From positions 1 to 58,315 of the forward strand of contig JAKAEO010000003.1 of the NCBI GenBank assembly GCA_021818285.1: a stretch of 58,315 nucleotides of DNA, in the 5' to 3' direction. The notes beneath the pieces were generated by a model. That model was not told where the DNA came from. It was given only the letters and a program-made list of their open reading frames with translations, and did not search any database. The position numbers were made by a program, and so were the translations under genes. The stretch is from Myxococcales bacterium. GTDB lineage: Bacteria > Myxococcota > Myxococcia > Myxococcales > Anaeromyxobacteraceae. This document shows, one piece after another, positions 9,413 through 27,155 of this stretch (its first letter is position 1; every line of letters starts with the position of its first letter).

Positions 9413-9829
9413 CTACGGCCCGCGCGCCGGCGTGCGCGGCCCGAACTCGAGCGGCGTGCCGGGCGGCAGCTTCTCCAGCCGCTCGATCCAGAAGGCGCCG
9501 TGGGCCCAGTCCACCGCGAAGGTGAAGCGGATCGGGTCTCCGGCAGCGAGCCCCTCGGCCCCGACGCCGGGCCGCAGGGCGAAGGGCATCACCATCGCGT
9601 CCATGCCGACCGCCTGGCCCCCCTGGTCCACGAAGCCCGGCACCGCCTCGTGCCGGATGACGAGCTCCGGGGCGGGGCGGCCCGGCTCGGGGAGCCGGAC
9701 CACCTCGCCCCGCACCGTGTAGCGCTGGACCGCCGCGGACGGGGCCGGGGCGGCCTGCTCCCCGCGGCGGCAGGCGGCCGGGGCCGCGAGCAGCGCGGGG
9801 AGCAGCAGGGCGAGGAGCGGGCGTCTCAC
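9413..9829 (-). CDS. CusF-like copper-binding lipoprotein
   Basis: The 138-residue protein has a signal sequence ending APAAC (Cys20), so it is probably an outer-membrane or periplasmic lipoprotein. The rest is a small beta-barrel resembling CusF/copper-binding modules: YTVRGEVVRL, then LVIRHEAVPGF and GMDAMVMPFAL, where His and Met residues usually bind Cu, and GDPIRFTFAVDWAHGAFWIERLE. A short insertion lies between the PGF and MDAM segments. Its GTG start overlaps the norB stop (GTGA). Coupling to norCB suggests a role in metal handling or assembly linked to NO reductase, although NorB uses non-haem iron rather than copper. Function is inferred. Confidence 0.65.
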   Translation of the reverse strand: MRRPLLALLLPALLAAPAACRRGEQAAPAPSAAVQRYTVRGEVVRLPEPGRPAPELVIRHEAVPGFVDQGGQAVGMDAMVMPFALRPGVGAEGLAAGDPIRFTFAVDWAHGAFWIERLEKLPPGTPLEFGPRTPARGP

Positions 9830-11163
9830 GCCCCCGATCGTGCCGGCGCCGGGCGCAACGTCAAGAGGTGCTTGATGATCAGCAGCGCCCCGGCCAGGAC
9901 CAGCAGGCCGTGCAGGAAGACGATCAGCATCCAGAAGCGCATGGGCGACTGGGCCACGATGTAGGGCTGCCCCTGCACCCGTTCCAGGTAGGTCTGGAGC
10001 ACGCCGGCCACCGCCATCGCCAGGCTCATGCCCACCACCGCGCTGCTGGTGAGCCAGAAGCCCCAGTGCCCTCCCCGCTCGTCGTACCGTCCGTCGGCGA
10101 AGCCCTTGAGCCGCGGGATGGCGAAGTAGAAGAAGGAGAGGTTCAGGAGCGCGTAGGCGCCGAAGAAGGCCAGGTGGCCGTGGGAGACCGTCACCTGGCT
10201 GCCGTGGGTGTAGTAGTTGATCTGCGGCAGCGTGTGGGCGAAGCCGAAGAGGCCGGCGCCGACGAAGTGCAGCACCGCCATGCCGATGACGTAGACCCAG
10301 GTGAGCCTCGGCTGCGGGCGCTTGCTGTCCTTCATCGACCGCCAGGTGTCGATGAGCATGAAGGCGATGGGCAGGGGCTCCAGCGCCGAGAAGGCGCCGC
10401 CCACCCAGAGCCAGTACCTCGGCGCGGCGATCCAGTAGTAGTGGTGGCCGGTGCCGGCGAGGCCGGTGAAGAGGAAGAGCCCGAGCTCCACGTAGAGCCA
10501 CTTCTCGACGATCTTCCGGTCCACGCCGGTGAGCTGGATCATCATGAAGGCCATCAGGGCCGCGGTGACCAGCTCCCAGGCCCCCTCCACCCAGAGGTGG
10601 ATGACCCACCACCAGTAGTACCAGTCGATGGCCAGGTTCTCGTAGAAGGGCATGCCGAAGAGGTACATCACCGCCAGGAAGACCAGGCCGGCCAGCAGCG
10701 TGCCCTGGGTGGCGGTGAAGCGCCGCGCCCTGAGGATGGTCACCCCCACGTTGGCGAGGAACATCAGCGCCCCGACGACCACCAGGACGTCGAGCGTGGT
10801 GGGGATCTCCAGCAGCGGCCGCCCCTGGGTCCAGCCGAAGAGGAAGCCCACCAGCGCCGCCACGCCGGTGCCGGTGAGCAGCACCAGCTGCGCCCAGGCC
10901 ACCTTGGGCCAGGCCAGCTCGCTCTGCGTCTCCTCGGGGATGGCGTAGTAGGTGGCGCCCATGAAGCCGAGCAGCAGCCAGAGCACCAGCAGGTTGGTGT
11001 GCATGGCGCGCGCGGTGGAGAAGGGGAAGACGTCCACCACCGCCTGCGGCACCGTGTAGAAGTAGTTGAAGGCGAGGTAGAGCCCCATCACCAGCTGCAG
11101 CGCGAAGAGCAGCAGGGCGACGACGAAGTATGGGTAGGCGACCCTCTGGGACTTGAAGTTCAC
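9826..11163 (-). CDS. norB: Nitric oxide reductase subunit B (cNOR catalytic subunit)
   Basis: A 445-residue haem-copper-oxidase-superfamily membrane protein with about twelve hydrophobic segments. It reduces 2 NO to N2O. Diagnostic segments: ARAMHTNLLVLWLLLGFMGATYY (low-spin haem ligand), WWVIHLWVEGAWELV (Fe_B ligand His and the conserved Glu), GLAGTGHHYYW (the HH pair) and HGHLAFFGAYALL near the C-terminus. There is no N-terminal extension of the quinol-oxidising qNOR type, which agrees with a NorC partner immediately upstream. The GTG start overlaps the norC stop (GTGA). Confidence 0.93.
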   Translation of the reverse strand: MNFKSQRVAYPYFVVALLLFALQLVMGLYLAFNYFYTVPQAVVDVFPFSTARAMHTNLLVLWLLLGFMGATYYAIPEETQSELAWPKVAWAQLVLLTGTGVAALVGFLFGWTQGRPLLEIPTTLDVLVVVGALMFLANVGVTILRARRFTATQGTLLAGLVFLAVMYLFGMPFYENLAIDWYYWWWVIHLWVEGAWELVTAALMAFMMIQLTGVDRKIVEKWLYVELGLFLFTGLAGTGHHYYWIAAPRYWLWVGGAFSALEPLPIAFMLIDTWRSMKDSKRPQPRLTWVYVIGMAVLHFVGAGLFGFAHTLPQINYYTHGSQVTVSHGHLAFFGAYALLNLSFFYFAIPRLKGFADGRYDERGGHWGFWLTSSAVVGMSLAMAVAGVLQTYLERVQGQPYIVAQSPMRFWMLIVFLHGLLVLAGALLIIKHLLTLRPAPARSGA

Positions 11164-11876
11164 GGCGTCCTCCCCTCGGCCAGGCTGGCGACGAACTCGG
11201 CGATGGCCTGGCGCTGCCCCTCCGAGAGGTGGTCGAACTTCGGCATGGTCGAGCCCGGGGTCAGCGCCTGCGGGTCGGCCAGGTACCGGGCGATCCAGTC
11301 GGCGTCGCGCCGCGTGGCGACGTACTCGAGCCGCGGCCCGCGGTGCTCGCCGGCGTTCCCCAGGGCGTGGCAGGCGAGGCAGGCCTCCTGGCTCACCAGC
11401 GCGGCGCCGGGCGACATCGCCGCGCCGCCGACCAGCCGGCGGGTCGAGGCCTTCCAGCGGGTGTCGGAGTCCTGCGGCGGCCAGTCGTGGTTGTCGATGC
11501 CGCCGACCCAGCGCAGGAAGTCCACCAGCCGGTCGATCTCGACGGGCGTGAGGTGCTGCTGCGGCATCTTGCGGTAGGAGGAGGCGAAGGCCTTCTCGGG
11601 CGACGCGAGCCGCAGCCGCACCGCGTCCTCGCCCAGCCGCTTGTAGGCGCGGGTCAGGTCCGGCGCGTAGTAGCCGCCGAAGCCCAGGATGGTGTGGCAG
11701 TCGTTGCAGTTGTGGTTCTCGAAGACGTGCTTGCCGGCGACGACGTTGGCGTCCAGCTTGTCCGCGTGGGTCAGCGCCGCGAACGACCGGTGCGTGTCCC
11801 AGGTCAAGCCCAGGAACAGCGCCAGGGACGAAAGCGTGCCCACCCAGAAGATGAGCTTGGCTGCGCGTTCGCTCAT
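11160..11876 (-). CDS. norC: Nitric oxide reductase subunit C with an additional C-terminal cytochrome c domain
   Basis: The 238-residue protein has an N-terminal membrane anchor (about 8-25), then a standard NorC domain: CNDCH haem motif at 57-61, GGYYAPDLT, and KMPQQHLTPVEIDRLVDFLRW ending with IDNHDWPP near 133. The family normally stops here at about 150 residues. This protein continues with a second haem-c domain, CLACH at 166-170 and possible Met ligand in STMPKF near 213. It would donate electrons to NorB through two c-type haems. The start at 11876 has GGAGAGGAG upstream. A sigma-54-type promoter lies about 50 nt upstream. Confidence 0.9.
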   Translation of the reverse strand: MSERAAKLIFWVGTLSSLALFLGLTWDTHRSFAALTHADKLDANVVAGKHVFENHNCNDCHTILGFGGYYAPDLTRAYKRLGEDAVRLRLASPEKAFASSYRKMPQQHLTPVEIDRLVDFLRWVGGIDNHDWPPQDSDTRWKASTRRLVGGAAMSPGAALVSQEACLACHALGNAGEHRGPRLEYVATRRDADWIARYLADPQALTPGSTMPKFDHLSEGQRQAIAEFVASLAEGRTP

Positions 11877-11923
11877 GGAACTCCTCTCCTCGTGCGTTGG
11901 GAACGGCGGAAGCCCCGGCCCAT

Positions 11924-11939
11924 CGCAAGCCGCCTGCCA
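11924..11939 (-). promoter_or_regulatory. Sigma-54 (-24/-12) promoter of norCB
   Basis: On the minus strand TGGCAGGCGGCTTGCG matches the consensus TGGCACGN4TTGCW at 9 of the 11 non-N positions other than the final W, with the GG and GC pairs 10 nt apart. The expected transcription start is near 11912, giving a leader of about 35 nt before norC. NorR-type sigma-54 activation of NO-detoxifying genes is known in other bacteria. I see no GTCA-N3-TGAC NorR site in the 70 nt upstream. Confidence 0.6.
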
Positions 11940-12010
11940 GCCGCAAGGGCGCGAAAACACGCGGCCGCGGCGCGGGAGCCCCACGCCGGCACCGAAGGAT
12001 GGGTGCGGCT

Positions 12011-12820
12011 TCAACGCGATTTGGGTTCGACGGCGGGGGGCGGCGCGGCGGCGCCCGCCCCTTCCGCCTCCATCGCCTGGAGCTCGGCCTCGAGGAGCTG
12101 GAAGGTGCTCTCGCGGAGCCGGTCCACGTCGGCGGCGCCGAGCCCGGCGGTGGGGAGCGCCGGCAGGATGCGCACCCGGATGCGCGACGGGGCGATCCAG
12201 GGCTGGTCGGCCGGCATCGCCGTCCCGGCGCCGGCGATGGCCACCGGGACCAGCGGGACGCCGGCGTCGATGGCCAGCTTGAACGGACCGGGCTTGAAGG
12301 GGCGCAGGGTCCCGTCGCGGCTGCGCGTCCCCTCGGCGAAGAGCCCCACCGGCACGCCCCGGGCCAGGTAGCCGCGCGCCCGCGCCAGCGCCGCCGAGCC
12401 GCTGTCCCGGTCGCCGCGCAGCACCGGGATGTAGCCGACGAGGGAGAAGGCCCAGCCCAGCCAGGGGACGCGGAAGGCCTCGACCTTCCCCACCCACTTG
12501 GTCTCGCGGGGCAGGCAGGCGATGGCCAGGGCGTCCACCATGGAGCGGTGGTTCGGCACCACCACGTAGCTCCCGGACGCCGGCACCGTCCCCTCGACCG
12601 AGACGCGCCAGAGCGGGTAGCAGCGGATGAGCAGCTCGCCGAGGAAGCGGACGGCGCGGCTCGCGACCATCCGGTCCCGGTCGAACGGGAAGGTGACGGC
12701 GCGCAGCAGCAGCGCCAGCGGGAAGGAGAACCCGATGAGGAGCGCCGCCGCGGCGTAGCCGACCAGCGCCGCCGCGGCGCGCACCAGGATCGCCGCCGGC
12801 CGGCGGCGCGGACGGGTCAT
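12011..12820 (-). CDS. 1-acyl-sn-glycerol-3-phosphate acyltransferase (PlsC family)
   Basis: A 269-residue membrane-associated acyltransferase. The catalytic motif is NHRSMVD at 90-96 (the HX4D box) and the substrate-binding motif FAEGTRSRDG follows about 75 residues later; two hydrophobic segments lie near residues 10-45. It should acylate lysophosphatidate or a related lysolipid. Its ATG overlaps the benzoate-CoA ligase stop (ATGA), an unusual pairing. A proline/alanine-rich tail ends the protein. It may adjust membrane lipids when aromatic acids are present, or may use an acyl-CoA made by the ligase; both ideas are inference. Confidence 0.85.
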   Translation of the reverse strand: MTRPRRRPAAILVRAAAALVGYAAAALLIGFSFPLALLLRAVTFPFDRDRMVASRAVRFLGELLIRCYPLWRVSVEGTVPASGSYVVVPNHRSMVDALAIACLPRETKWVGKVEAFRVPWLGWAFSLVGYIPVLRGDRDSGSAALARARGYLARGVPVGLFAEGTRSRDGTLRPFKPGPFKLAIDAGVPLVPVAIAGAGTAMPADQPWIAPSRIRVRILPALPTAGLGAADVDRLRESTFQLLEAELQAMEAEGAGAAAPPPAVEPKSR

Positions 12821-14442
12821 GCCTTGGCGGCGCCCGCCCCCTGGCCCGCCGCCTCCGCCTGCTGCCGCAGCCGGAAGCGCTGGATCTTGCCGGTGGCGGT
12901 CTTGGGCAGCTCGGCCACGAAGTGGATCTGGCGCGGGTACTTGTAGGGCGCGAGCCGGGTCTTGCAGTGCTGCATGAGCTGGTCGGCCAGCGCCGGCGAC
13001 CGCGCCTGCCCCTCGCGCAGCACCACCCAGGCCTCCGGCTTCACCAGCCCCTCGGCGTCGGCGTAGCCGATGACCGCCACCTCCAGCACCGCCGGGTGGC
13101 TCACCAGCGTGCCCTCGATCTCGATGGGGGAGCACCAGATGCCGCCCACCTTGAGCATGTCGTCGCTGCGGCCGCAGTAGACGTAGGCCCCCGTCTCGTC
13201 CTGGACGTAGGTGTCGCCGGTGTCGAGCCAGTCCCCGGGGAGCATGGTGGCCGCGGTCTTCTCCGGGTTGTTCCAGTAGTAGGCGGCGGTGGAGGGCCCC
13301 TTGATCTGCAGCCGCCCCTGCTCGCCCGCCGGCGCCGGCGTCCCCTCGGCGGTGACGATGCGGGCCTGGTAGCCGGGCACCAGCGTGCCGCTGGTGCCGG
13401 GCCGGACGTCGCCCGGCCGGTTGGAGATGAAGATGTGCAGCGCCTCGGTGGAGCCGATGCCGTCGAGGATGGTGAGGCCCGTGCCCTCCCGCCAGCGCCG
13501 GAAGATGTCGGCGGGGAGCGCCTCGCCGGCCGAGACGCAGTAGCGCACCGAGGAGAGGTCGGGCCGGGGGCCGGCGGCCAGGGCCTGGAGCTGCGCGGCG
13601 TAGAGGGTGGGCACGCCGAAGTAGAGGGTGGGCTTGAAGCGGGCGATGGTCTCGAAGGTGCTCTGCGGCGTGGGGCGGCCGTCGAGCAGCACCGCGGTGG
13701 CGCCGGCCCAGAGCGGGAAGGTCATCCCGTTCCCCAGGCCGTAGGCGAAGAAGAGCTTGGCGGCGGAGAAGCAGACGTCGTCCTCCCGGACGCCGAGGAC
13801 CTCGGTGCCGTACCACTGGCTGGTGACCACCATGTCGCGCTGGCGGTGGACCGCCCCCTTGGGCCGGCCGGTCGAGCCGGAGGAGTAGAGCCAGAAGCAG
13901 GCGGCCGTGGCGCCGGCCGGGACGGCCTCCAGCGCCGGCGAGGCGGCGGCCAGCTCGTCGCGGAGGGTGCGGGCCTTCCCCTCGACGGCGAAGACCAGCG
14001 GCGGCGCCGGCCGCGCCGCCGCCACCGCCGGTTCCACCTCGGCGGCGAACTCCGGCGAGTAGAAGATGGCGGAGCAGGCCGAGTCCTGCAGGATGTAGCG
14101 GTAGTCGTCGGCCCGCAGCAGGGTGTTGAGCGGGACCGGGACGATGCCGGCCTTGATGGCGCCCCAGAACAGGTAGAAGAACTCGGGGCAGTCCTTCACC
14201 ACCATGAGCAGCCGCTGCCCCCGCTGCAGCCCCAGCTTCAGCAGGGCGTTGCCGCAGCGGTTCACGCTCGCCGCCAGCTCGGCGTAGGTGACCTCGCCGC
14301 CGGCGGCGCGGATGGCCACCTTGGCCCCGCGCCCCTCGGCGAGGTGCCGGTCGATGAAGGGGACGGCGGCGTTGAAGCCCGGCGCGAACTCCAGGCCGGC
14401 CGGCGAGGTGCTGCGGTCCACCGTGAGCTTTCCGAGGTCCAT
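12817..14442 (-). CDS. bclA: Benzoate-CoA ligase (AMP-forming)
   Basis: The 541-residue acyl-adenylating enzyme makes benzoyl-CoA from benzoate, ATP and CoA, the entry step of the pathway. The AMP-binding motif YSSGSTGRPKG lies at 186-196, DGIGSTEALHIFISN near 327, the hinge WLDTGD near 405, and the catalytic A10 lysine in ELPKTATGKI is Lys519. The FFAYGLGNGMTFPLWAGATAVLL segment is typical of the benzoate/4-hydroxybenzoate ligase group. Lys519 corresponds to the lysine whose acetylation inactivates such ligases, and a tandem acetyltransferase gene lies 80 nt upstream. ATG 14442 is preferred to 14469, which lies ahead of the start predicted from the TACAAA element. Confidence 0.88.
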   Translation of the reverse strand: MDLGKLTVDRSTSPAGLEFAPGFNAAVPFIDRHLAEGRGAKVAIRAAGGEVTYAELAASVNRCGNALLKLGLQRGQRLLMVVKDCPEFFYLFWGAIKAGIVPVPLNTLLRADDYRYILQDSACSAIFYSPEFAAEVEPAVAAARPAPPLVFAVEGKARTLRDELAAASPALEAVPAGATAACFWLYSSGSTGRPKGAVHRQRDMVVTSQWYGTEVLGVREDDVCFSAAKLFFAYGLGNGMTFPLWAGATAVLLDGRPTPQSTFETIARFKPTLYFGVPTLYAAQLQALAAGPRPDLSSVRYCVSAGEALPADIFRRWREGTGLTILDGIGSTEALHIFISNRPGDVRPGTSGTLVPGYQARIVTAEGTPAPAGEQGRLQIKGPSTAAYYWNNPEKTAATMLPGDWLDTGDTYVQDETGAYVYCGRSDDMLKVGGIWCSPIEIEGTLVSHPAVLEVAVIGYADAEGLVKPEAWVVLREGQARSPALADQLMQHCKTRLAPYKYPRQIHFVAELPKTATGKIQRFRLRQQAEAAGQGAGAAKA

Positions 14443-14471
14443 GCGAGGTCCGGTCCCGAGGTGTCCCATCG

Positions 14472-14522: not shown

Positions 14523-15455
14523 TCAGCGGAGTGGCTTCTCGAAGGAGAGCCGCTGCGAGAGGGTGAAGCCGGTCCGGGCCAGGAAGCGCAGCAGGTCGAA
14601 GGCGTCCCAGTCGGCCTGGGTCACCACCCGCTCGACCCGCAGCGAGCCGAGGTTCAGGAGCAGCTGGCGCATCAGCGCCCTCCCCACGTTCTTGCGGGCG
14701 AAGGCCGGGTGCACGCCGAGCGTGTCCATCACCGCGGTGGGCTCGGTCCGGCCGAAGTCGCCCATGTCCACGCGCGCCATGAGGAAGCCGGCGAACTGCC
14801 GGTCCACCTCGGCCACCAGCGAGACCCGGACCCCGGACTGGCGCAGGACCTCGACCGCCTTGCGCTGGTAGTACGGGGTGCGGTCCCGGCCGGTGATCTT
14901 CCGGTCCACCTGGACGATGGCCGGCAGGTCGGCCTCGGCCATCGAGCGGACCGGCACCTGCTCCCAGGCGAACTCCTCGGTGCCCTGGGCCGGCGGCTCC
15001 TCGATGAGGTCGCCCACCGGCCGCTCCAGCACCAGCCGGCGCGAGAGCCGCAGGCCGTTGGCGGAGAAGAAGCCGGTGAGCCGGTGCTCCGCCCAGTCGG
15101 CCTCGGTGCGCAGCGCCCCCACGCCCCGGTCGGCCAGCACCCCCTCCAGCGCCTGGAGCAGCGCGGTGGCCACCCCCTTGCGCCCGGCGGCCGGGTCGAC
15201 GCCGATGGCGCCGAGCACCCCCACCGGCGCCTTGCCGCCGAACTCGCCGTCGAGCACGTCGGCGAGGAGGAAGCCCTGGATCCGGCCGCCGGCGGTGGCC
15301 GCCAGCCCCACGGTCCCGGTCCGGCCGTCCCCCAGCCCCGCCAGCCGCTTGGCGTAGAAGCCCCGCCGCGAGCCGCCGGTGATGGCCTGGTCGATGGCGA
15401 TGACCGCCTCGAGGTCGCCGGGCACCAGGGCCCGCATGTCGTGTCGGGTGGCCAT
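14523..15455 (-). CDS. Tandem-domain GNAT acetyltransferase in the benzoyl-CoA reductase operon
   Basis: The 310-residue protein consists of two GNAT domains, about 1-150 and 165-310. Each begins with an IDQAITGGSRRGFY or VDRKITGRDRTPYY motif and has the acetyl-CoA loop (RKGVATAL in domain 1, RKNVGRAL in domain 2) after a conserved GVDP/GVHP strand. The start is 2 nt after the bcrD stop, so it belongs to the operon. The single-domain GNAT at 26565-27035 shares the same D-x2-x-TG-x-x-x-x-x-Y motif. I infer that it acylates a lysine on a pathway enzyme; benzoate-CoA ligase, encoded next, is a natural candidate. A small-molecule substrate cannot be excluded. Confidence 0.8.
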   Translation of the reverse strand: MATRHDMRALVPGDLEAVIAIDQAITGGSRRGFYAKRLAGLGDGRTGTVGLAATAGGRIQGFLLADVLDGEFGGKAPVGVLGAIGVDPAAGRKGVATALLQALEGVLADRGVGALRTEADWAEHRLTGFFSANGLRLSRRLVLERPVGDLIEEPPAQGTEEFAWEQVPVRSMAEADLPAIVQVDRKITGRDRTPYYQRKAVEVLRQSGVRVSLVAEVDRQFAGFLMARVDMGDFGRTEPTAVMDTLGVHPAFARKNVGRALMRQLLLNLGSLRVERVVTQADWDAFDLLRFLARTGFTLSQRLSFEKPLR

Positions 15456-15457
15456 GG

Positions 15458-16303
15458 TCAGGAGGCCATCGCCAGCCGGCCCTGGGCGGCCAGCTTCTGG
15501 TGGCGGAAGGCGCCCCAGAGCGCCGCGCCGATGGCCCCGGCGTAGATCGAGTCGGGGTGGCCCTTCACCTCCATCCGCACCTTCTCGCCGCCCAGCGACT
15601 CGCGCAGCGCCGCCACCAGCCCGGTGTCGAGCGCCAGGCCGCCGGTCATCAGCACCGTGCCCTCGGAGACCGAGATCCCCTTGAGCAGGCTGGCGAGCCG
15701 CCCGGCCATCGAGAGGTGGATGCCCTTGAGGATGTTGGCGGCGGAGATGCCCCGCGACACCATGTTGATGACGTCGGTCTCGGCCAGCACCGCGCAGATG
15801 GAGGAGACCTTCTCCGGCGCCTCCCCCTGCTGGCTCAGGCTGCCGATCTCGTCCTGGCCGATGCCCAGGTAGCGGGCGATGTTCTCCAGGAACTGGCCGG
15901 AGCCGGAGGCGCACTGGCTGGTCATCTTGTAGGCCTGCACCTTGCCCCGCGGGTCGACGCGGATGGCGCGGCCGTGGAGCGCCCCGATGTCCAGCACCCC
16001 GCGGGTGGTGCCGTCGAGGTGGATGGCCCCCCGGGCGTGGGTGGTCATCGAGTAGAAGTGGCCGGTGGTGAAGGTGAGGTTCTCGCCGTCGCCGGTGCTG
16101 GCCACGTAGGCCACGTCCTGGCGGGCGACGCCGGCCTGCCGGAGCATCGCGTCGTAGGCGTCGGCCGCCAGCTGGTACGGGTCGCGTTGCCGGATCCGGT
16201 CCACGCTGCGCGCCAGCCACCTCGGCGCGCCGCCGCCGTGCTCGAAGAGCACGGTCTTCACGCAGCCGGTGCCGACGTCGATGCCCGCGGTGAGGGTCGC
16301 CAT
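15458..16303 (-). CDS. bcrD: Benzoyl-CoA reductase subunit D (ATPase/activator, BcrD)
   Basis: The 281-residue BadF/BadG/BcrA/BcrD-family ATPase matches the length of Thauera BcrD (about 282). The ASKHA ATPase motifs are GIDVGTGCVKTVLF at 7-20 and VLDIGALHGRAIRVD near 103. The segment TSQCASGSGQFLENIARYLG (about 128-147) carries a cysteine of the [4Fe-4S] cluster that bridges BcrA and BcrD. It couples ATP hydrolysis to low-potential electron transfer into the BcrBC active site. It follows bcrA in the order C-B-A-D. Confidence 0.93.
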   Translation of the reverse strand: MATLTAGIDVGTGCVKTVLFEHGGGAPRWLARSVDRIRQRDPYQLAADAYDAMLRQAGVARQDVAYVASTGDGENLTFTTGHFYSMTTHARGAIHLDGTTRGVLDIGALHGRAIRVDPRGKVQAYKMTSQCASGSGQFLENIARYLGIGQDEIGSLSQQGEAPEKVSSICAVLAETDVINMVSRGISAANILKGIHLSMAGRLASLLKGISVSEGTVLMTGGLALDTGLVAALRESLGGEKVRMEVKGHPDSIYAGAIGAALWGAFRHQKLAAQGRLAMAS

Positions 16304-16313
16304 GGTGCTCCTC

Positions 16314-17621
16314 CTAGACCTGGACGGCGCGCCGCGCGAACTCCGCGCCGCCCAGCGCCCCGGTGTAGATCGAGTCGGGGTTGATGTTGATGGTGACCTG
16401 CCCGTAGTTCTCCCGCACCAGCTTGGTCAGCTCGCGGACCGCCGCCTCGTTCTTGGCGACGCCGCCGGTGAAGGTGAACTGGTCCCGGATGCCGCCGGAG
16501 CGGCTGATGATGGACATGGCCCGCAGGATGATGGCCCGGTGCAGGCCGGCCAGCACGTCCTCGCGCTTGTCGCCCAGGGCCAGCCGGTCGCGGAGCTCGG
16601 CGCCGGCGAAGACCGTGCAGGTGGAGTTGATGCGCAGCGAGCGGGTGGACTTCATCGCCATGGGCCCGAGCTCGTGGAGCCCCATCTGCATCTCGTCGGC
16701 GATGTAGCCCAGGTAGCGGCCGCAGCCGGCGGCGCAGCGGTCGTTCATCTGGAAGTTCTCGACGATGCCGTCGGGGTCCACCTGGATGGCCTTGGTGTCC
16801 TGGCCGCCGATGTCGAGGACGGTGCGGGTGCCCGCGTACATGATGTGGGCGCCCAGGCCGTGGCAGAGGATCTCCGAGCGGATGTGCTCCTTGGGGAAGG
16901 GCAGCCGGACCCGGCCGTAGCCGGTGCCGACCACGTAGGCCTCCTCCAGCGGGATGGCCAGCGCCGCCTGGACCCGGTGCGCCACCCCGTTGGCCGCCGC
17001 CTGGCCGGTGGCGCCGAGCGTCTTCTCCAGCGCCCGGAGGAACTTCCCCTCCATGGCGCCGGCCGGGGGCCGGTTCTCCACCTCGATGATCGACTTGTCG
17101 TAGACGTTGAGCAGCAGGTCGAAGGAGAGCCCGGCCTCCTTGCAGACGGCGTCGCCCAGCGCCATGAAGCGCGAGCCGGCGATGTCGCGGAAGAAGTCGG
17201 ACTTGCGCTTGGCGCCCGGCGCGAAGATGCCCTCCGACTCGGCGCGGAGCTGGCGGAACACCTCGCCGAGGGCGGCCCGCAGCGGCTTCTCCTGCCCGGC
17301 GAAGCGCAGGCCGGCGCCGTGCCGGACGCCGGTGGCCTCGAGGTCGTCGAGCTGCTCCAGGAACTGGACGTGGCGGAAGTTGCGCTCCAGCTCCGCCAGG
17401 AAGGCGTCGACCCGCCCGGCCAGCGCCGCCTCCCCCTCCAGCCCGCGCCGGAAGAGGGTGAAGCGGGCGTCGATGAGCGCCTCCTGCTTGGAGACCGCCG
17501 CCGCGGTGTCGTAGTTGGAGCGGGAGTTGGTGATGCCCCGCCCCAGCTGCTTCCCGCCGTCGTCCATCACCACCGCCTTGGTGGTGGTCGAGCCCAGGTC
17601 GATGCCGATGAAGCACTTCAT
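16314..17621 (-). CDS. bcrA: Benzoyl-CoA reductase subunit A (ATPase/activator, BcrA)
   Basis: The 435-residue ASKHA ATPase partners BcrD. It begins [20 protein letters not shown], the nucleotide-binding phosphate-1 motif, and continues with [18 protein letters not shown] and [19 protein letters not shown], whose cysteines hold the shared iron-sulfur cluster. The length near 435 places it with the Thauera-type Bcr (BcrA about 438) rather than the shorter Azoarcus BzdPQ subunits. [16 protein letters not shown] near the C-terminus is the adenosine motif. It lies 10 nt before bcrD and 15 nt after bcrB. Confidence 0.94.
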
Positions 17622-17636: not shown

Positions 17637-18944
17637 TCAGGCGGCCGACGCCACGCGCCGCTTCTGGTCGATCATCTGGAAGTAGCTCTCCAGGCGGTTC
17701 TTCACGTTGGCGGCGGAGAAGTAGCGCGGGTCCACCAGGTCGGTCTCGATGAAGGCGCCGGGCTTCCCGGTGCGCTTCTCGATCTCGCGCATCATCATCA
17801 GCTGCCCGGCCGAGAAGCTGTTGCAGCTCTTGATGGAATTGATGAGCAGGCCGTCGGCCTCGTACTCCTTCATGTACTTCTCGAGGAGGCCGACCCGCTG
17901 GGGCAGGTTCATGTTGGTGTAGCAGCCCATCGCGTAGTCGGCGAGCGACTCCAGCGGATGGTCGGGGTCGTGGCGGAAGCCCAGGTCGTAGAGGCCGCCG
18001 ACCTTGGTGTAGCTCGAGGCGACCACCACCGCGCCCTCGTCGTAGAACATCTTCCAGAACTCGCGGAAGCTGGTCCAGTTGGGCGGCCCCTCCACCACCA
18101 GCCGGTACTTCTGCTGCTTCATGTCGCCCTCGGGGGTGATGGGCCCGAGCCCCTTGGCCATGCGCTCCTCGATCTCGGCGCGCAGCAGCCGGTAGTACTC
18201 GCTGGCGTCGGGCGTCCCGCGGAAGGCGGTGAAGATGGGGCCGGTGTAGTAGACGCTCCCGAAGTACGCGTCGATGGGCGAGGGCCGGTGCCGCGCCGTC
18301 TCCAGCACCCAGACGAAGTCGTCCTCGGCCTTGGCCGACTCGCGCATCAGCTCGCGCAACCGGTCGATGTCGAACTTCACGCCCGACACCTGCTCCAGCT
18401 TGGGGATGACCTCCTGCTTGAGCTGCTTGACGATGTAGTCCCGCATGTTCCGGGTGGTGGTCCCCTCGCCCTGGTAGGGCACGTGGAGCATCACCGTCGG
18501 GCACTTGTACTCGTTGCGGACCAGCTCGAACCACTTCATGAAGGTGAAGCAGCCGGTGTAGCTCAGCAGCAGCACGTCGGGCCGGGGCAGCGGCTTGCCG
18601 TTGGGCGCCAGGTTGCCCTTGGCCATGCTCCCCAGGTCGGCCTTCACGTAGGTGCAGACGTCCTCGGAGTGGCCGCGCTTCTCCGCCTCGAGGATGTAGT
18701 CGCCGGAGAGCTTGCGCATCCCGTTCTGGATGGCGTTGATCTCCGGCAGGTTGTTGAGGAGCCCGAAGACCTGGATGAGCTCGTTGAGGTTGCCGGGGAC
18801 GAAGGTGGCCGCCACCTTGCGCCCGGTCTCCGGGGCGGAGGTGAGGGCGTCGTAGTTGCGGGTGATCATCTCCTTCTGCTTCAGCATCGAGAGGTCCTTG
18901 ACGACCTCGGACTTCCCCGCGGCCTTGCTCTCGGGCTTGCTCAT
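17637..18944 (-). CDS. bcrB: Benzoyl-CoA reductase subunit B (BcrB, active-site subunit)
   Basis: The 435-residue subunit of the 2-hydroxyglutaryl-CoA dehydratase-like fold forms, with BcrC, the [4Fe-4S]-containing module that binds benzoyl-CoA and reduces it to cyclohexa-1,5-diene-1-carbonyl-CoA. Recognisable parts are LLSYTGCFTFMKWFELV near 125, the LHVPYQGEG segment, and the C-terminal SCNSFSAGQLMMMREIEKRTGKPGAFIETDLVDPRYF. ATG 18944 is chosen over 18956 because GGAG stands 6 nt upstream and it overlaps the bcrC stop as ATGA. Confidence 0.94.
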   Translation of the reverse strand: MSKPESKAAGKSEVVKDLSMLKQKEMITRNYDALTSAPETGRKVAATFVPGNLNELIQVFGLLNNLPEINAIQNGMRKLSGDYILEAEKRGHSEDVCTYVKADLGSMAKGNLAPNGKPLPRPDVLLLSYTGCFTFMKWFELVRNEYKCPTVMLHVPYQGEGTTTRNMRDYIVKQLKQEVIPKLEQVSGVKFDIDRLRELMRESAKAEDDFVWVLETARHRPSPIDAYFGSVYYTGPIFTAFRGTPDASEYYRLLRAEIEERMAKGLGPITPEGDMKQQKYRLVVEGPPNWTSFREFWKMFYDEGAVVVASSYTKVGGLYDLGFRHDPDHPLESLADYAMGCYTNMNLPQRVGLLEKYMKEYEADGLLINSIKSCNSFSAGQLMMMREIEKRTGKPGAFIETDLVDPRYFSAANVKNRLESYFQMIDQKRRVASAA

Positions 18945-20134
18945 GGCGTGCTCCACAGCTTGATGGAATCGGCGAAGGTTCCCGCCTGCTCGCGGACCGG
19001 CTGCATCTGCGCCGAGTTCTCGGCGTACTTGAAGCCGATGTAGGGGACGTCGACCCGGTCGAGCCGCTCCTCGAGCATGGGGCGCTCCAGCAGGGCCGGG
19101 TCGCAGAAGCTGGGGGCGGCGAAGATCACCCCCTCGGCCCCGTTCCGGCGGACCGCGTCCACGATGTACTGCCCCTTGGCCGCCTGGTCAGGCTGGTACT
19201 TGGAGGCGGTCTCCTCGGAGCGGGTCAGGTAGGCGGTGGAGAGGTTGGCGAGCGGGTCGCCCTCGACCGGCACGTCGCCGATGAGGAGCCGGTTCACCAG
19301 CATGAAGTCGTCGTCGACGACGTAGCAGCCGGCCATCTCGATGGCCTTGATGAGGCCGAGGGGCGGCTGCTCGCAGAAGACCCCGTTCAGCACGATGCGG
19401 GTGTTGTCGCGCCGCTGCCGCTTCTCGGAGCGGGCCGCCGCCAGCCAGTCCCGCAGCAGCCGGGTGTGCTCCTCCACCGGCAGCACCAGCCCGGCGCGCA
19501 TCAGGAGGTACACGTCGGACGACGGGGCCTGCCAGGGCTCGGCCGCCCGGTAGGCGTACACCTCCCGCACCACCCGGCGGTTCTCGTTGTAGACGGCGAT
19601 GGAGTCGCGCAGGGCGTCGTCGGTGATCTCGACGCCGGCCAGCTTCCCCAGCCCCTCGCGCAGCTCCTGCAGCTCGTGGACCCAGAACTCGTCGGCCATC
19701 CCGGGCGTGAAGTTCTGGGGCACGTCCAGGTAGCGGACGTAGACCTTGGGGAAGAGCAGCTTCCAGATGCCGGAGAGGTTGCGGATGACGTCGCAGAGGG
19801 AGGGGAAGAGGAAGCCGTCCACGAAGTCGAGCCGCCCGGTGATGCCCAGCTCCAGGGTGGAGCGCGGGATGCGGCAGATGTAGCTCTGGTAGTAGGCGTC
19901 CCCGTGGATCACCTCCAGGGACTCGCCGGCGCCCATGATCCCGAGCGGCAGCATCCCGGCGGCGTGGACCAGCTCGCGCGGCGCGTAGACCGGCATGAAG
20001 GCGACCACCTTGCGGCCGGGCGCGGCCGCCTTCCAGCGCCGGGCGGCGCCGAAGTCGAGGTCGTCGAACAGCTCCTGGCAGCGCGCGACGATGGGCGCGG
20101 TGGGGCTCGGGGCGGGGACGGGTGCGGCGCACAT
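18941..20134 (-). CDS. bcrC: Benzoyl-CoA reductase subunit C (BcrC)
   Basis: The 397-residue partner of BcrB belongs to the same HgdB-like family. Motifs include FMPVYAPRELVHAAGMLPLGIMG (about 45-68), YYQSYICRIPRSTLELG with a cluster cysteine, FLFPSLCDVIRNLSGIWK, and NGVFCEQPPLGLIKAIE. The C-terminal PSFCDPALLERPMLEERLDRVDVPYIGFKYAENSAQ is typical of the family. The length resembles Thauera BcrC (about 386). It follows dch by 2 nt and overlaps bcrB. The reaction needs reduced ferredoxin, for which no gene is present here. Confidence 0.94.
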   Translation of the reverse strand: MCAAPVPAPSPTAPIVARCQELFDDLDFGAARRWKAAAPGRKVVAFMPVYAPRELVHAAGMLPLGIMGAGESLEVIHGDAYYQSYICRIPRSTLELGITGRLDFVDGFLFPSLCDVIRNLSGIWKLLFPKVYVRYLDVPQNFTPGMADEFWVHELQELREGLGKLAGVEITDDALRDSIAVYNENRRVVREVYAYRAAEPWQAPSSDVYLLMRAGLVLPVEEHTRLLRDWLAAARSEKRQRRDNTRIVLNGVFCEQPPLGLIKAIEMAGCYVVDDDFMLVNRLLIGDVPVEGDPLANLSTAYLTRSEETASKYQPDQAAKGQYIVDAVRRNGAEGVIFAAPSFCDPALLERPMLEERLDRVDVPYIGFKYAENSAQMQPVREQAGTFADSIKLWSTP

Positions 20135-20136
20135 GG

Positions 20137-20916
20137 TCAGCGGTCCTCCCAGACGGGCGCGCGCTTCTCCAGGAAGGCGGTGAGCCCCTCGACGGCGTCC
20201 CGGGTCTTCATGAGCCGGGCCAGGTACAGCTCCTCGACGGCGGCCAGCTTCTCGCGCACCCGGGCCCGCAGGTCCCGGCGCGACGCCTCGACCGCCAGGC
20301 GCAGCGAGGCGGCCGACCGCTTCGCGAGGTGCTCGTCGAACCAGGCCAGCGCCGCCGCCTCCGGGTCGTCGGCCACGGCGTTCACCAGGCCGAGGCGGTG
20401 GGCCTCGCGACCGTCGACGGAGCGGCCCGACCAGAGCAGGTCGTCGGCGGCCCCCTGCCCTACCCGCTCCGGGAGCAGGCAGGAGGCGGCCGGGGCGAAG
20501 ACCCCGAGCAGGATCTCGGGCTGGCCCATCCGGGCGTCGGGGGCGGCGAAGATCAGGTGGCCGGCGGCCGCCACCTCCAGCCCGCCGCCCAGGCACTGGC
20601 CGCGCACCGCCACCAGGATGGGCAGGGGGAAGTCCACCATCCGCAGCACCAGGCCGTGGAGCGACCGCAGCATGGCGGCGCAGCTCTCCGGCAGGTGCTC
20701 CTGGACGCTGGCGCCGAAGCTGAAGTGGGGCCCCTCGTGCTCCAGGAGCACCCCGCGCAGCGCCGGGGCGCCCGGCGCCTCCCGCCCGGCCTCCGCCAGG
20801 GCCGCGTCCAGCGCCGCGATCATCTCGGCGTCGACGATGTTGGCCTTGGGCCGCGAGAGCCGGAGCCGGAGCAGCCGGCCGTCGCGGTCGCGCGAGACCT
20901 GGAGGCAGCCGGCCAT
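20137..20916 (-). CDS. dch: Cyclohexa-1,5-diene-1-carbonyl-CoA hydratase
   Basis: The 259-residue crotonase-fold enzyme adds water to the diene product of benzoyl-CoA reductase to give 6-hydroxycyclohex-1-ene-1-carbonyl-CoA. The start MAGCLQVSRDRDGRLLRLRL and the LSRPKANIVDAEMIAAL, HFSFGASVQEHLPE and VRGQCLGGGLEVAAAGH segments are typical of dienoyl-CoA hydratases (Dch/BadK-like with FSFGASV). Its start shares one base with the oah stop (TGATG). The operon order had-oah-dch-bcrCBAD puts all early ring-modifying enzymes in one transcript. Confidence 0.9.
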   Translation of the reverse strand: MAGCLQVSRDRDGRLLRLRLSRPKANIVDAEMIAALDAALAEAGREAPGAPALRGVLLEHEGPHFSFGASVQEHLPESCAAMLRSLHGLVLRMVDFPLPILVAVRGQCLGGGLEVAAAGHLIFAAPDARMGQPEILLGVFAPAASCLLPERVGQGAADDLLWSGRSVDGREAHRLGLVNAVADDPEAAALAWFDEHLAKRSAASLRLAVEASRRDLRARVREKLAAVEELYLARLMKTRDAVEGLTAFLEKRAPVWEDR

Positions 20917-22058
20917 CAGCGCCCCTCCCGCCGGCCCTTGGCGCCGGGGAGCAGGCTCTCGGTGAGCTCCACGCTCCAGGGGGTGCCCTTCGCCAGCGCC
21001 TGCCGCAGCCCGACGAAGTCGGCCTCGCGGTCCTCCTTGGTGCCCTCGTTGAAGGCCCGGAAGCCGGTGCGGGCCTCGGTCATCATGTTGAGCGCCAGCC
21101 AGGCCCGGCTGTCCTCCTTGTTGGCGTCCCAGGCGTGGAGCTTGGGCTTGCGCAGCTCCTCGAGGGTCTTGGTGGTGCAGTCGGGGAAGGTGAGCAGGAG
21201 CTTGGCGCAGAGCGCCTCCACCCGCTCGTCGAGGAGGGAGAGGTCCACCGTGCCCCTCTTCAGGACGGCCTTGCCCTCCTCCAGCGCCGCGCCGGTCCTG
21301 GGCTCGCCGTGCACGAACCGGCCGTACTCGTCGAAGAGCCGGTCGGTGACCACCAGCGGGTTGGCGACGTACTTCCCGTCGACCTTCAGGCCCGGCACCA
21401 CGTCGGTGATCATCCCCTCCCGGTAGGCCCGGTGGGCCGACCAGGGCTCGCAGAGCACGCAGGCCTCCATGGCCCGCTCGTTCCCGACGATCAGCGGCAG
21501 GAAGTCGGTGGCGCCGCCGATGGGGGCGGAGCCGTGCTTGGGGCCGGCCTGGCCGAAGCGGGCCAGGTCCTGGGCGATGGTGAAGTCGCAGGCCATGCCG
21601 ATCTCCTGCCCGCCGCCGATGCGCATGCCGTTCACCCGGCAGATCACCGGCTTGTCGCAGCCCAGGATGGCGCTGACCATGTCGTTGAAGAGCCGCATGT
21701 ACTGCCGGTACTCCTGCGGGTTGCCGGCGTAGTACTCGGCGTACTCCTTGGTGTTGCCGCCGGTGCAGAAGGCCTTGTCGCCGGCCCCGGTGAAGACCAC
21801 GCTGGCCACGTCGCGGGAGGTGGAGGCGGCCCGGAAGGCCAGGATCACGTCCTTCACCATCTGGGTGGTGTAGGAGTTGAACTGCGCCGGGTTGTTCAGG
21901 ACGATCCAGGCGTTGTACAGCCCCGCCGCCGGCGAGCCGTCGGGCCGCCGCGCCGGGCGCTTCTCGAGGAGCACGCCGGGGGGCCCGGCCGCCGGCTTCC
22001 AGCCGGAGAGCAGGTCGTGGTCCTTGAGCGGGCCGCCGGACGTCGTGGGGTCGGACAT
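20916..22058 (-). CDS. oah: 6-oxocyclohex-1-ene-1-carbonyl-CoA hydrolase
   Basis: The 380-residue member of the crotonase superfamily is close in length to Thauera/Geobacter Oah/BamA (about 377). It hydrates and then hydrolytically opens the ring of 6-oxocyclohexenoyl-CoA to give 3-hydroxypimeloyl-CoA. Diagnostic stretches: LYNAWIVLNNPAQFNSYTTQ, GDKAFCTGGNTKEYAEYYAG and CRVNGMRIGGGQEIGMACDF, and GQAGPKHGSAPIGGATDFLPL. The long C-terminal extension beyond a normal crotonase is present. It begins 21 nt after had and overlaps dch. Confidence 0.94.
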   Translation of the reverse strand: MSDPTTSGGPLKDHDLLSGWKPAAGPPGVLLEKRPARRPDGSPAAGLYNAWIVLNNPAQFNSYTTQMVKDVILAFRAASTSRDVASVVFTGAGDKAFCTGGNTKEYAEYYAGNPQEYRQYMRLFNDMVSAILGCDKPVICRVNGMRIGGGQEIGMACDFTIAQDLARFGQAGPKHGSAPIGGATDFLPLIVGNERAMEACVLCEPWSAHRAYREGMITDVVPGLKVDGKYVANPLVVTDRLFDEYGRFVHGEPRTGAALEEGKAVLKRGTVDLSLLDERVEALCAKLLLTFPDCTTKTLEELRKPKLHAWDANKEDSRAWLALNMMTEARTGFRAFNEGTKEDREADFVGLRQALAKGTPWSVELTESLLPGAKGRREGR

Positions 22059-22079: not shown

Positions 22080-23138
22080 TCAGGGGACGAGGACGGCGCG
22101 GCGCGTGAGCTTCCGCGCGTGCACCTCCTCGAAGACGCGGTTGACGTCGGCGAGCGGTCGCCGCTCGACGAAGGGCGCCAGCACCACCTTGCCGTCCAGC
22201 ACCAGGTCGAGCGCCGCCGGGTACAGCTCCGGCGGGCAGCCCCAGTTGCCCAGGGCGCGGGCGTGGAAGGCCATCAGGTTGGAGAGGCGGACCTCCACCT
22301 TGTCCATGGTGAAGCCCACCACCGCCAGGGTGGCGCCGTGGACCAGCAGGCTCCAGGCGGTGGCCTGGCCGGCGGCGGTGCCGGAGGTCTCGAAGATGGC
22401 CCACTCGCGCGAGGGCAGCTTGTTGGCCCGGGCGAACTCGCCGATCTCCTTCTTCAGCGCCTTGGCGTCGAGCTGGCGCGCGTTGAAGGTCCGGGCGGCG
22501 CCGTGGGCCCCGATGAGGTCGAGCTTGGGCTGGTCGACGTCCACCGCCACCACCGTGGCGCCCAGGGCGCGGGCGATCTGGACCGCGTAGCCGCCCACGC
22601 CGCCCACGCCGATGACCACCGCCAGCTGCCCGGGCCGCACGCCGGCCTGGACCACCGCCTGGTAGGGGGTGGTGACGGCGTCGGCCACCACCGACAGGTC
22701 GGCGAGCGCGATCCCGGCCTTGGCGAGGCGCCCCTCGTCCACCGCGCACAACCCGCGCGCGGGCACGGCGACGTGGGTGCCGAAGCCGCCCTGGATGTCG
22801 TTGCCCGGCATCTTCTGGGTGGGGCAGATGGTGCCGCGGCCGCGGCGGCAGGCGTCGCACTCGCCGCAGGGGATCACCGCCGGGACGATGACCGCCTTGC
22901 CCAGCCAGGCCTCCGCCCCCGGGCCCGCCTTCACCACCCGGCCGCTGATCTCGTGGCCCAGCGCCAGGGGCAGCGGCAGGTTGGTGCGGACGCCGTCGTA
23001 GTAGTAGCCGAGGTCGGTGTGGCACACCCCGCAGCCGGCCACCTCCACCACCACCGCGCCGGGGCCGGGCTCGCCCGGGTCGAACTCCTGGCGCTCCATC
23101 GGCTGGCCCACTGCGGTCATCATCCAGCGGTGCGGCAT
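22080..23138 (-). CDS. had: 6-hydroxycyclohex-1-ene-1-carbonyl-CoA dehydrogenase
   Basis: The 352-residue zinc-dependent alcohol-dehydrogenase-family enzyme oxidises the hydroxyl formed by Dch with NAD. Catalytic zinc residues lie in [14 protein letters not shown] (36-49) and GHEISG; the structural zinc site is [16 protein letters not shown]. The Rossmann motif is GVGGVGGYA near 178. It is the first gene of the ring-reduction operon, behind a promoter with a 16-bp palindrome. It matches the Thauera-type Had in architecture, slightly shorter. Confidence 0.92.
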
Positions 23139-26109: not shown

Positions 26110-26568
26110 CTACTCGGTCGCGGCGCGGGCGCGCCGCTCCGCGGGCCGGGCCGCCGCCTCGCGCCGGTCCTGGTCGATGAGCTTGCGCATGGTGGCCAGG
26201 GTGATGGAGCCGAGCGTCGCCCGGGCGATGTCGTCGATCTCGTCGATCACCCGGCCCAGGGCCCGCCCCTCGGGCGTGCGCGAGCCCGGCTCCCGGACCG
26301 CGTCGCGCGAGGCCACCGGCTCGAAGTGCTGGATGACGTCGAGCAGGGTGACGCGCTTGGGGTTTCCGCGGAAACGGTAGCCGCCGCCGGCGCCGCGCAG
26401 CGCCTCGACCAGCCCGGCCCGGCCCAGGGTGCGCAGCACCTTGGAGAGGTGGTGGCCGGAGATCTCGAAGCGCTCGGCGATCTCCCCGGCGGAGAACTGC
26501 CGCTCCGGATCCCGGGCCAGCTCCAGCACCGCGTAGAGCGCGAAGCGGGTGGCCTTCTGCAGCCTCAC
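26110..26568 (-). CDS. Rrf2-family transcriptional regulator without cysteines
   Basis: The 152-residue protein has the Rrf2 winged helix-turn-helix: MRLQKATRFALYAVLELA, IAERFEISGHHLSKVLRTLGRAGLVEALRGAGGGYRF and the TLLDVIQHFEP helix start. IscR and NsrR carry three cysteines after this point to bind an iron-sulfur cluster; this protein contains no cysteine at all. It therefore cannot sense NO or redox state through a cluster in the usual way. A GTG start overlaps the upstream GNAT stop (GTGA), so the two are co-translated. The C-terminus is Arg/Ala-rich. Confidence 0.85.
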   Translation of the reverse strand: MRLQKATRFALYAVLELARDPERQFSAGEIAERFEISGHHLSKVLRTLGRAGLVEALRGAGGGYRFRGNPKRVTLLDVIQHFEPVASRDAVREPGSRTPEGRALGRVIDEIDDIARATLGSITLATMRKLIDQDRREAAARPAERRARAATE

Positions 26569-27035
26569 GGCGCCAGCCCCTTCTCCAGCTCGATGAACGG
26601 CCCGGCCATCATCCCCTGGCTGCGGAAGAAGGACATCACCAGCTTGTCCTCCTTGGCGATCATGGTGCGGACCTGGCGCACCCCGGACCTCCGGAAGCGG
26701 TCGCAGACCGCCTCGAAGAGCAGCGTGCCCAGGCCGTCCTGGCGGGCGGCCCGGTTCACGTTGATGGCGAAGATCCAGCCGCTGGGCGGCGAGCCGAACT
26801 CCCAGGCCCGGACCTCCCCGACGATGAAGCCGGCGGGCCGCCCGTCCTTCTCGGCGATGAGGAAGTAGCGGTCGGGCTGGCCGCCGGCGTACCGCTCCAG
26901 CCGGTCCTTCCAGTAGGCGACCTTGGCGATGCCGGTGGTCTCCTCGTCGAGGGAGACCACCGTCTGCAGATCGGCCGCCCGCGCCGGCCGGATGTCGAAG
27001 GGAACGCCGGGCATCTCGGTATTCCGGTGCTCCAT
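26565..27035 (-). CDS. GNAT acetyltransferase, homologous to the tandem GNAT domains
   Basis: The 156-residue single-domain GNAT has FDIRPARAADLQTVVSLDEETTGIAKVAYWKDRLERY (in outline), matching the motif at the start of both domains of the protein at 14523-15455. The acetyl-CoA loop RQDGLGTLLFEAV lies near residues 109-121 and the LVMSFFRSQG segment near the C-terminus. It is co-transcribed with the cysteine-free Rrf2 gene (GTGA overlap) and divergent from the Pat-like gene. ATG 27035 is preferred to the upstream TTG because a complete promoter (27042-27070) places the transcription start at or near this ATG. Confidence 0.82.
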   Translation of the reverse strand: MEHRNTEMPGVPFDIRPARAADLQTVVSLDEETTGIAKVAYWKDRLERYAGGQPDRYFLIAEKDGRPAGFIVGEVRAWEFGSPPSGWIFAINVNRAARQDGLGTLLFEAVCDRFRRSGVRQVRTMIAKEDKLVMSFFRSQGMMAGPFIELEKGLAP

Positions 27036-27041
27036 TACCAA

Positions 27042-27070
27042 TTTATACCCGGCCGCGCGGCGGAATTCAA
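27042..27070 (-). promoter_or_regulatory. Promoter of the GNAT-Rrf2 operon, apparently leaderless
   Basis: On the minus strand TTGAAT (27070-27065), 17 bp, TATAAA (27047-27042) is a near-consensus sigma-70 promoter. The -10 ends 6 nt before the ATG at 27035, so the transcript would begin at or very near the start codon. Confidence 0.65.
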
Positions 27071-27141
27071 AGGGATCCCCTTGCGACGACGCGTCGCGAT
27101 CGGGGGCCGCCTTCCGCGCCGGGGCCGCGAGAGGTTCGCCC

Positions 27142-27147
27142 TATACT
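27142..27147 (+). promoter_or_regulatory. -10 element of the Pat-like gene
   Basis: TATACT lies 8 nt before the ATG at 27156, with no ribosome binding site in between and no clear -35. The transcript would have a leader of about two bases. The GNAT promoter on the other strand lies 72 bp away, so the two acetyltransferase genes share one divergent control region. Confidence 0.5.
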
Positions 27148-27155
27148 GGGCGCGC

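Follow-up and report, generated by a model that had tools for sequence, protein, structure and literature searches.

The gene at positions 14523–15455 (minus strand) of the window, by which we mean the whole 58,315-nucleotide stretch of DNA from a Myxococcales bacterium (Anaeromyxobacteraceae) analysed here, encodes a protein of 310 amino acids with two GNAT domains (P0002). This protein is shown here to belong, as its two-domain form, to a GNAT family that goes together with three kinds of benzoyl-CoA reductase, namely the Thauera-type BcrCBAD, the class II Bam reductase and, through a relative with one domain encoded at the place of bzdT, the Azoarcus-type BzdNOPQ. P0002 may be a small-molecule acyltransferase that acts at the benzoyl-CoA step, a reading to which we assign a probability of roughly 0.4. 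Work on the anaerobic degradation of aromatic compounds has proceeded gene by gene in a small number of model strains, and the literature that we found gives no function for bzdT or bamK. Placed in one family across three reductase types, of which class II is non-homologous to the other two, bzdT, probably bamK, the tandem GNAT and the split gene pairs turn from loose ends into one testable question.

The tandem GNAT gene and its product

The gene for P0002 runs from an ATG at 15455 to a stop codon at 14523–14525 on the minus strand, the strand being a detail that the earlier note had not given. Its start codon lies 2 nt behind the end of bcrD at 15458 (...TGA CC ATG...), a junction that looks like stop-start coupling, and its stop codon is 53 nt away from the start of the benzoate-CoA ligase gene bclA (12817–14469; TIGR02262, 639 bits). 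The gene order is had-oah-dch-bcrCBAD-GNAT-bclA, all on the minus strand, with bcrD at 15458–16303 (TIGR02261, 449 bits), bcrA at 16314–17621 (TIGR02259, 768 bits), bcrB at 17637–18956 (TIGR02260, 823 bits), bcrC at 18941–20140 (TIGR02263, 662 bits), the dienoyl-CoA hydratase gene dch at 20137–20913 (TIGR03189), the 6-oxocyclohexenecarbonyl-CoA hydratase gene oah at 20916–22058 (TIGR03200) and the 6-hydroxycyclohexenecarbonyl-CoA dehydrogenase gene had at 22080–23138 (TIGR03201). Since each of these genes scored above the curated cut-off of its NCBIfam equivalog, the position between bcrD and benzoate-CoA ligase described in the earlier note is confirmed. The adjacency of bcrD and the GNAT gene is not due to chance, because it recurs across the window's family. 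The GNAT gene is a candidate for the last gene of the bcr operon, a label that would hold only if bclA is not co-transcribed. Directly 3′ of bclA, on the same strand, is an acyltransferase gene of the phospholipid type (PF01553; 12131–12820, minus strand).

The two-domain architecture proposed earlier was borne out by both methods that we used. PF00583 matched P0002 in two stretches (63.3 bits; gathering threshold: 20.7), and the AlphaFold2 model built with 67 homologues (mean pLDDT 89, pTM 0.84) has two complete GNAT folds, domain 1 (residues 1–148; 15012–15455) and domain 2 (residues 166–310; 14526–14960), both encoded on the minus strand and joined by a linker near residues 150–165 that is weakly predicted. 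Aligned with homologues, the two domains differ in the acyl-CoA pyrophosphate loop, (Q/R)xxGx(G/A). The loop of domain 1, GRKGVA (residues 91–96; 15168–15185, minus strand), has an altered first position and keeps its glycine, G94, a position occupied by glycine in 97/99 homologues. The loop of domain 2, ARKNVG (residues 253–258; 14682–14699, minus strand), is degenerate, with Asn256 at the position where 61/99 homologues have glycine and the other 38 likewise have a degenerate loop. In addition, domain 1 of P0002 carries Gly82 where all other aligned tandem homologues have Asp or Glu, except for a 97% identical relative that also has Gly, whereas domain 2 has kept its acid; the losses within P0002 are thus complementary, affecting the acid in domain 1 and the loop glycine in domain 2. 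Because of Gly82 in the one domain and the missing loop glycine in the other, catalytic activity of the P0002 copy encoded in the window appears uncertain.

The solved structures nearest to the model are tandem GNATs mostly acting on small molecules: a glucosamine N-acetyltransferase (5kf1), the mycothiol synthase MshD, a GNAT of the clavulanate pathway and a histidine acetyltransferase. VipF and Eis were also among the matches; these two are protein acetyltransferases, and most of the others take small amines. The predicted fold by itself would thus fit either a small molecule or a protein as substrate. MshD and the glucosamine N-acetyltransferase of C. acetobutylicum share the two-GNAT architecture with P0002 (TM-score ~0.61–0.67 over the whole chain), but they are only 15–22% identical to it and belong to other pathways with other substrates. 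None of the named NCBIfam GNAT equivalogs (MshD, AAC and others) was over its cut-off for P0002, the best being NF002959 (49.7 bits; cut-off: 124), and in the PDB no close sequence relative scored over the cut-off.

Association with three types of benzoyl-CoA reductase

We scored the tandem GNAT as present when both domains were encoded, either fused or as two adjacent genes, and compared genomes with and without a Thauera-type bcrD over the cut-off in three sets. The first set consisted of 60 relatives, including the window's own genome; within the window's family, the tandem GNAT gene was directly 3′ of bcrD in 7/7 genomes with bcrD (in one of them across a contig break) and in 0/17 without. 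Among 150 Rhodocyclaceae-like relatives of Azoarcus taiwanensis, both GNAT domains were encoded in 4/4 bcrD genomes and in 0/146 others, and among the alphaproteobacterial relatives of a Bradyrhizobium MAG in 11/12 and 0/186, respectively. Pooled, this amounts to 22 of the 25 genomes with bcrD and 1 of the 383 without (Fisher p ~4e-32, not corrected for shared ancestry). The single exception without bcrD over the cut-off (G057) carries a bcrD-like fragment below it. Conversely, the tandem GNAT was absent from several genomes with a Thauera-type reductase (G029 and G030, with bcrD over the cut-off; G718; and G031, G036 and G040, just below it). The protein is therefore common among bcr genomes but not universal, and it is not indispensable.

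A profile search of genome contigs with an alignment of eight sequences as the query returned 128 loci, of which 80 were kept. They span Alpha-, Beta- and Gammaproteobacteria, Desulfuromonadia and Myxococcota, so that a restriction of the family to relatives of Anaeromyxobacter is ruled out. The genomes of 77 of these 80 loci carry bcr genes: bcrD was inside the fetched stretch at 48 loci (within 600 nt at 31 of these), other bcr-pathway genes were present at 5 more, and a whole-genome check of the remaining loci detected bcrD everywhere except in three MAGs of 2.2–3.0 Mb. In the split form, found at 12/99 examined loci including those of Azoarcus taiwanensis and Rhodovulum, the two domains are encoded by adjacent genes 9–36 nt apart. 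Since these split genes stay paired, this suggests that the two domains work together. Two observations concern copy number and domain number. Paramagnetospirillum marisnigri has two tandem GNAT copies ~29 kb apart on one contig (L075, L076), and a bcr cluster of a further member of the Myxococcota (L258) has a single-domain, domain-2-like GNAT (36%) directly 3′ of bcrD, which may be intermediate between BzdT and the tandem form.

The association extends beyond the Thauera-type reductase. In Desulfuromonadia, tandem GNAT genes were found 3′ of bcrD (L223–225, L227–229, L235, L238, L242) and, at other loci, directly upstream of bamB-C-D-E-F-G-H (L230, L231, L233, L236, L237) or directly 3′ of bamI (L226). 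The identity of the BamB neighbour is supported by a score of 1178 bits against the crystallized BamB (PDB 4z3w). Given these bam loci, the linkage is not confined to class I reductases. The benzoyl-CoA reductases of class I and class II are non-homologous (PMC7285207), and they have substrate and product in common; thus, the GNAT follows the reaction and not one protein complex. In some Desulfuromonadia (L099, L223, L238), electron-transfer genes of the class II kind occur together with a class I reductase: bcrCBAD is preceded, at a distance of a few kb, by genes resembling bamH and bamI.

In Rhodocyclaceae without a Thauera-type bcr cluster, the position of bzdT, which follows bzdNOPQ and bzdM and is flanked by bzdS and bzdU, was occupied by genes for single-domain relatives of domain 2. 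Here, bzdN, bzdO and bzdQ scored over their own cut-offs, and a GNAT in the bzdT position was present in 13/15 genomes with bzdQ, compared to 1/131 others. No BadL or BadM was seen in the bzd stretches examined.

Taken together, the association of this GNAT family with benzoyl-CoA reductases is solid. The dedication to the pathway that had been proposed from the window is thereby supported well beyond it, through linkage to bcr, bam and bzd genes, and the conservation with bcr in relatives that had been named as a check is seen both in the window's family and in the pooled sets. As for the statement that no bcr operon with a tandem GNAT gene had been described, our literature search indeed found no paper describing one, but such neighbourhoods are common in genomes, and relatives of the protein already bear names (bzdT and probably bamK).

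Relationship to BzdT, BamK and BadL

Domain 2 of P0002 is the domain nearest to the protein in the bzdT position. The two are 34–41% identical over 140–150 amino acids, have the GEFG, DTIGVDP and C-terminal K/QR motifs in common, and are encoded at the same place in a benzoyl-CoA reductase operon (bzdNOPQMSTUVWXYZA in Azoarcus/Aromatoleum). The bzdT-position protein differs in having a single domain and an intact CoA loop, and in its Azoarcus-type reductase. Our use of the name BzdT for it is based on gene order and not on an alignment with the CIB sequence. In strain NaphS2, growth on benzoate up-regulated BzdT (PMC2988823), and the legend to a figure of the bzd operon colours part of it as of unknown function (PMC6678401); beyond operon listings and these two mentions, we found no function for bzdT in the bzd operon literature that we searched. 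BamK of Geobacter metallireducens (Gmet_2077), annotated as an N-acetyltransferase and induced 21.8-fold on benzoate (PMC1924859), probably belongs to the tandem GNAT family as well, going by its position and not its sequence: its locus number is three past that of bamH, comparable to the tandem GNAT directly 3′ of bamI in L226.

In a tree of 177 GNAT domains, which is based on few columns and is unsure in its deep forks, domain 1 (support 100/99), domain 2 (100/92) and the BadL group (100/95) formed three separate clades, with single-domain relatives branching between BadL and the tandem domains. The BadL clade also takes in further single-domain genes of Desulfuromonadia. Two motifs are common to all groups: [E/D]FG, preceding strand beta-4, and a basic-aromatic one that follows helix 1. 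BadL of Rhodopseudomonas palustris and relatives is, like P0002, a GNAT of benzoyl-CoA pathway clusters with an EFG motif. It is 23–29% identical to the two P0002 domains, but has a single domain that lacks the beta-4 acid, is paired with BadM and acetylates aminobenzoates (PMC6191541). Both domains of P0002 fall outside the BadL clade; inside it is the product of another gene of the window, at 26565–27041 (minus strand), which is ~29% identical to P0002 and was the one paralogue found when the window's own genome was searched with P0002. This single-domain, BadL-like GNAT is the BadL counterpart here, and an identity of the tandem GNAT with BadL is rejected. A plain duplication of BadL is not supported either, since BzdT-like and other single-domain GNATs branch between them. 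Nor was the tandem GNAT gene, whose neighbours are bcrD and bclA, found paired with a BadM-type Rrf2 gene. We conclude that the tandem GNAT is a distinct clade, distantly related to BadL, that tracks the reductase also at loci showing neither BadL nor BadM. Single-domain GNATs 47–50% identical to domain 2 also occur in Myxococcota (L254, L256, L257) with no reductase gene or telling neighbour in view.

Possible functions of the tandem GNAT

As a small-molecule acyltransferase, P0002 would use acetyl-CoA or another acyl-CoA to modify a compound met at benzoyl-CoA dearomatisation, with an aromatic or alicyclic amine, an aminobenzoate-type analogue or a by-product of the reductase as candidate acceptors; the modification would keep the pathway from being poisoned or misled. 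For such a reaction, domain 1 would offer the standard CoA pyrophosphate loop, altered in its first position, and domain 2, the one nearest to BzdT, appears to keep the acceptor-side signature (R-x2-YY, G[DE]FG, D244). Since the CoA loop of domain 2 appears to have decayed in this lineage, this domain probably helps in binding or in dimer-like packing. The pair would stem from an ancient duplication, and some bacteria still have the domains as separate adjacent genes. This reading is favoured by the action of BadL, the nearest characterized relative, on aminobenzoates and by the predominance of small-molecule tandem GNATs among the nearest folds. Against it are the presence of VipF and Eis in the fold class, Gly82 together with the lost loop glycine, and the bcr genomes that lack the GNAT. 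It is conceivable, although on balance doubtful, that BzdT, probably BamK and the tandem form share one enzymatic function as one family needed wherever benzoyl-CoA is dearomatised by any of the three reductase lineages; this would be a missing common step, e.g. the removal of a toxic by-product or the release of CoA from stalled benzoyl-CoA. Engineered cassettes for benzoate or toluene should include the protein if it is needed, and a control of flux by it would amount to a new regulatory layer.

The earlier note had raised the idea of feedback acylation of the benzoate-CoA ligase at its A10 lysine. According to this idea, the tandem GNAT acetylates BclA and so switches off benzoate activation. 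The lysine (in ELPKTATGKI) is indeed intact, being K528 when counted from the ATG at 14469 and K519, as numbered before, when counted from Met10, which we favour as the start because alignments with homologues begin at residue 9–10. Moreover, bclA is the next gene, and ligases of the benzoyl-CoA pathway in R. palustris are reportedly regulated by lysine acetylation, going by the title of work by Crosby et al. from 2010. However, the family tracks the reductase type, at bam and bzd loci too, and not a neighbouring ligase; in most bcr loci no bclA adjoins the GNAT gene, and BadL acts on small molecules. Furthermore, the window already encodes a Pat-like protein of 938 amino acids (27027–29843, plus strand) with an NDP-forming acyl-CoA synthetase (PF13380, PF13607, PF13549) and a C-terminal GNAT domain (PF00583). 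Pat-type protein acetyltransferases tie GNAT activity to the control of acyl-CoA ligases, as had been suggested for P0002, but they carry the NDP-forming domain, which Pfam did not find in P0002. If the ligase is lysine-acetylated in this organism, the Pat-like protein would be the more natural candidate. Regulation of the ligase by P0002 is thus not supported and we regard it as unlikely; a possible acetylation of the ligase would not explain the link to the reductase.

It is just as improbable that the tandem GNAT is a second producer of acetamidobenzoates (or of another ligand) for BadM, in which case the two GNATs would have the same substrates or divide them between each other. BadL acetylates aminobenzoates, and the acetamidobenzoates bind to BadM, which derepresses the bad operon; two BadL homologues did not acetylate the BadM protein (PMC6191541). 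In the window, the BadL-like gene overlaps a gene for a BadM-like Rrf2 regulator (26110–26568, minus strand; TIGR00738, 101.8 bits, cut-off: 73.3), and this pair (26110–27041), 11 kb from the tandem GNAT gene, has counterparts near bcr in 7/7 bcr-bearing members of the family and at 39/80 homologous loci. The distant homology to BadL and the common EFG motif are consistent with such a role. Nevertheless, the tandem domains are in well-supported clades of their own, and the regulator of the bzd operon, BzdR, has benzoyl-CoA itself as its effector (PMC5658619). As neither BadL nor BadM was seen at the bzd loci, making the BadM inducer is unlikely to be the common role of the family.

Slightly less likely still is a helper of the reductase complex at the protein level, possibly non-catalytic, that acylates it, acts as its chaperone or senses acyl-CoA for it. 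The tight linkage to bcrD, the degenerate loop of domain 2 in part of the homologues and the pairing of the domains even as two genes would be explained in this way, but domain 1 has kept its loop glycine almost throughout, and one protein-specific helper is unlikely to serve both BcrCBAD and the non-homologous BamB-I. A metabolite as the target fits better than a reductase protein, since the two reductase classes are non-homologous and yet share substrate and product. Least probable, though attractive as a special case of the small-molecule reading, is a safety valve for CoA that moves the benzoyl or dienoyl group to an amino acid when the reductase is saturated, in the manner of the mammalian glycine N-acyltransferase, a GNAT-superfamily enzyme that forms hippurate from benzoyl-CoA: the GNAT does follow the benzoyl-CoA step whatever the reductase, but no glycine N-acyltransferase was among the best 50 PDB folds for P0002, and donor specificity cannot be read from the sequence.

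With the tandem GNAT, the BadL-BadM-like pair and the Pat-like protein, the window offers three candidate acetylation systems for comparison within a single organism. The starts of the Pat-like and BadL-like genes overlap on opposite strands, and a Pat-like gene is also near bcr in L068, L077, L083 and L085. Elsewhere in the window, two adjacent frames at 9826–12000 (minus strand) resemble, by eye only, NorC and NorB of nitric oxide reductase.
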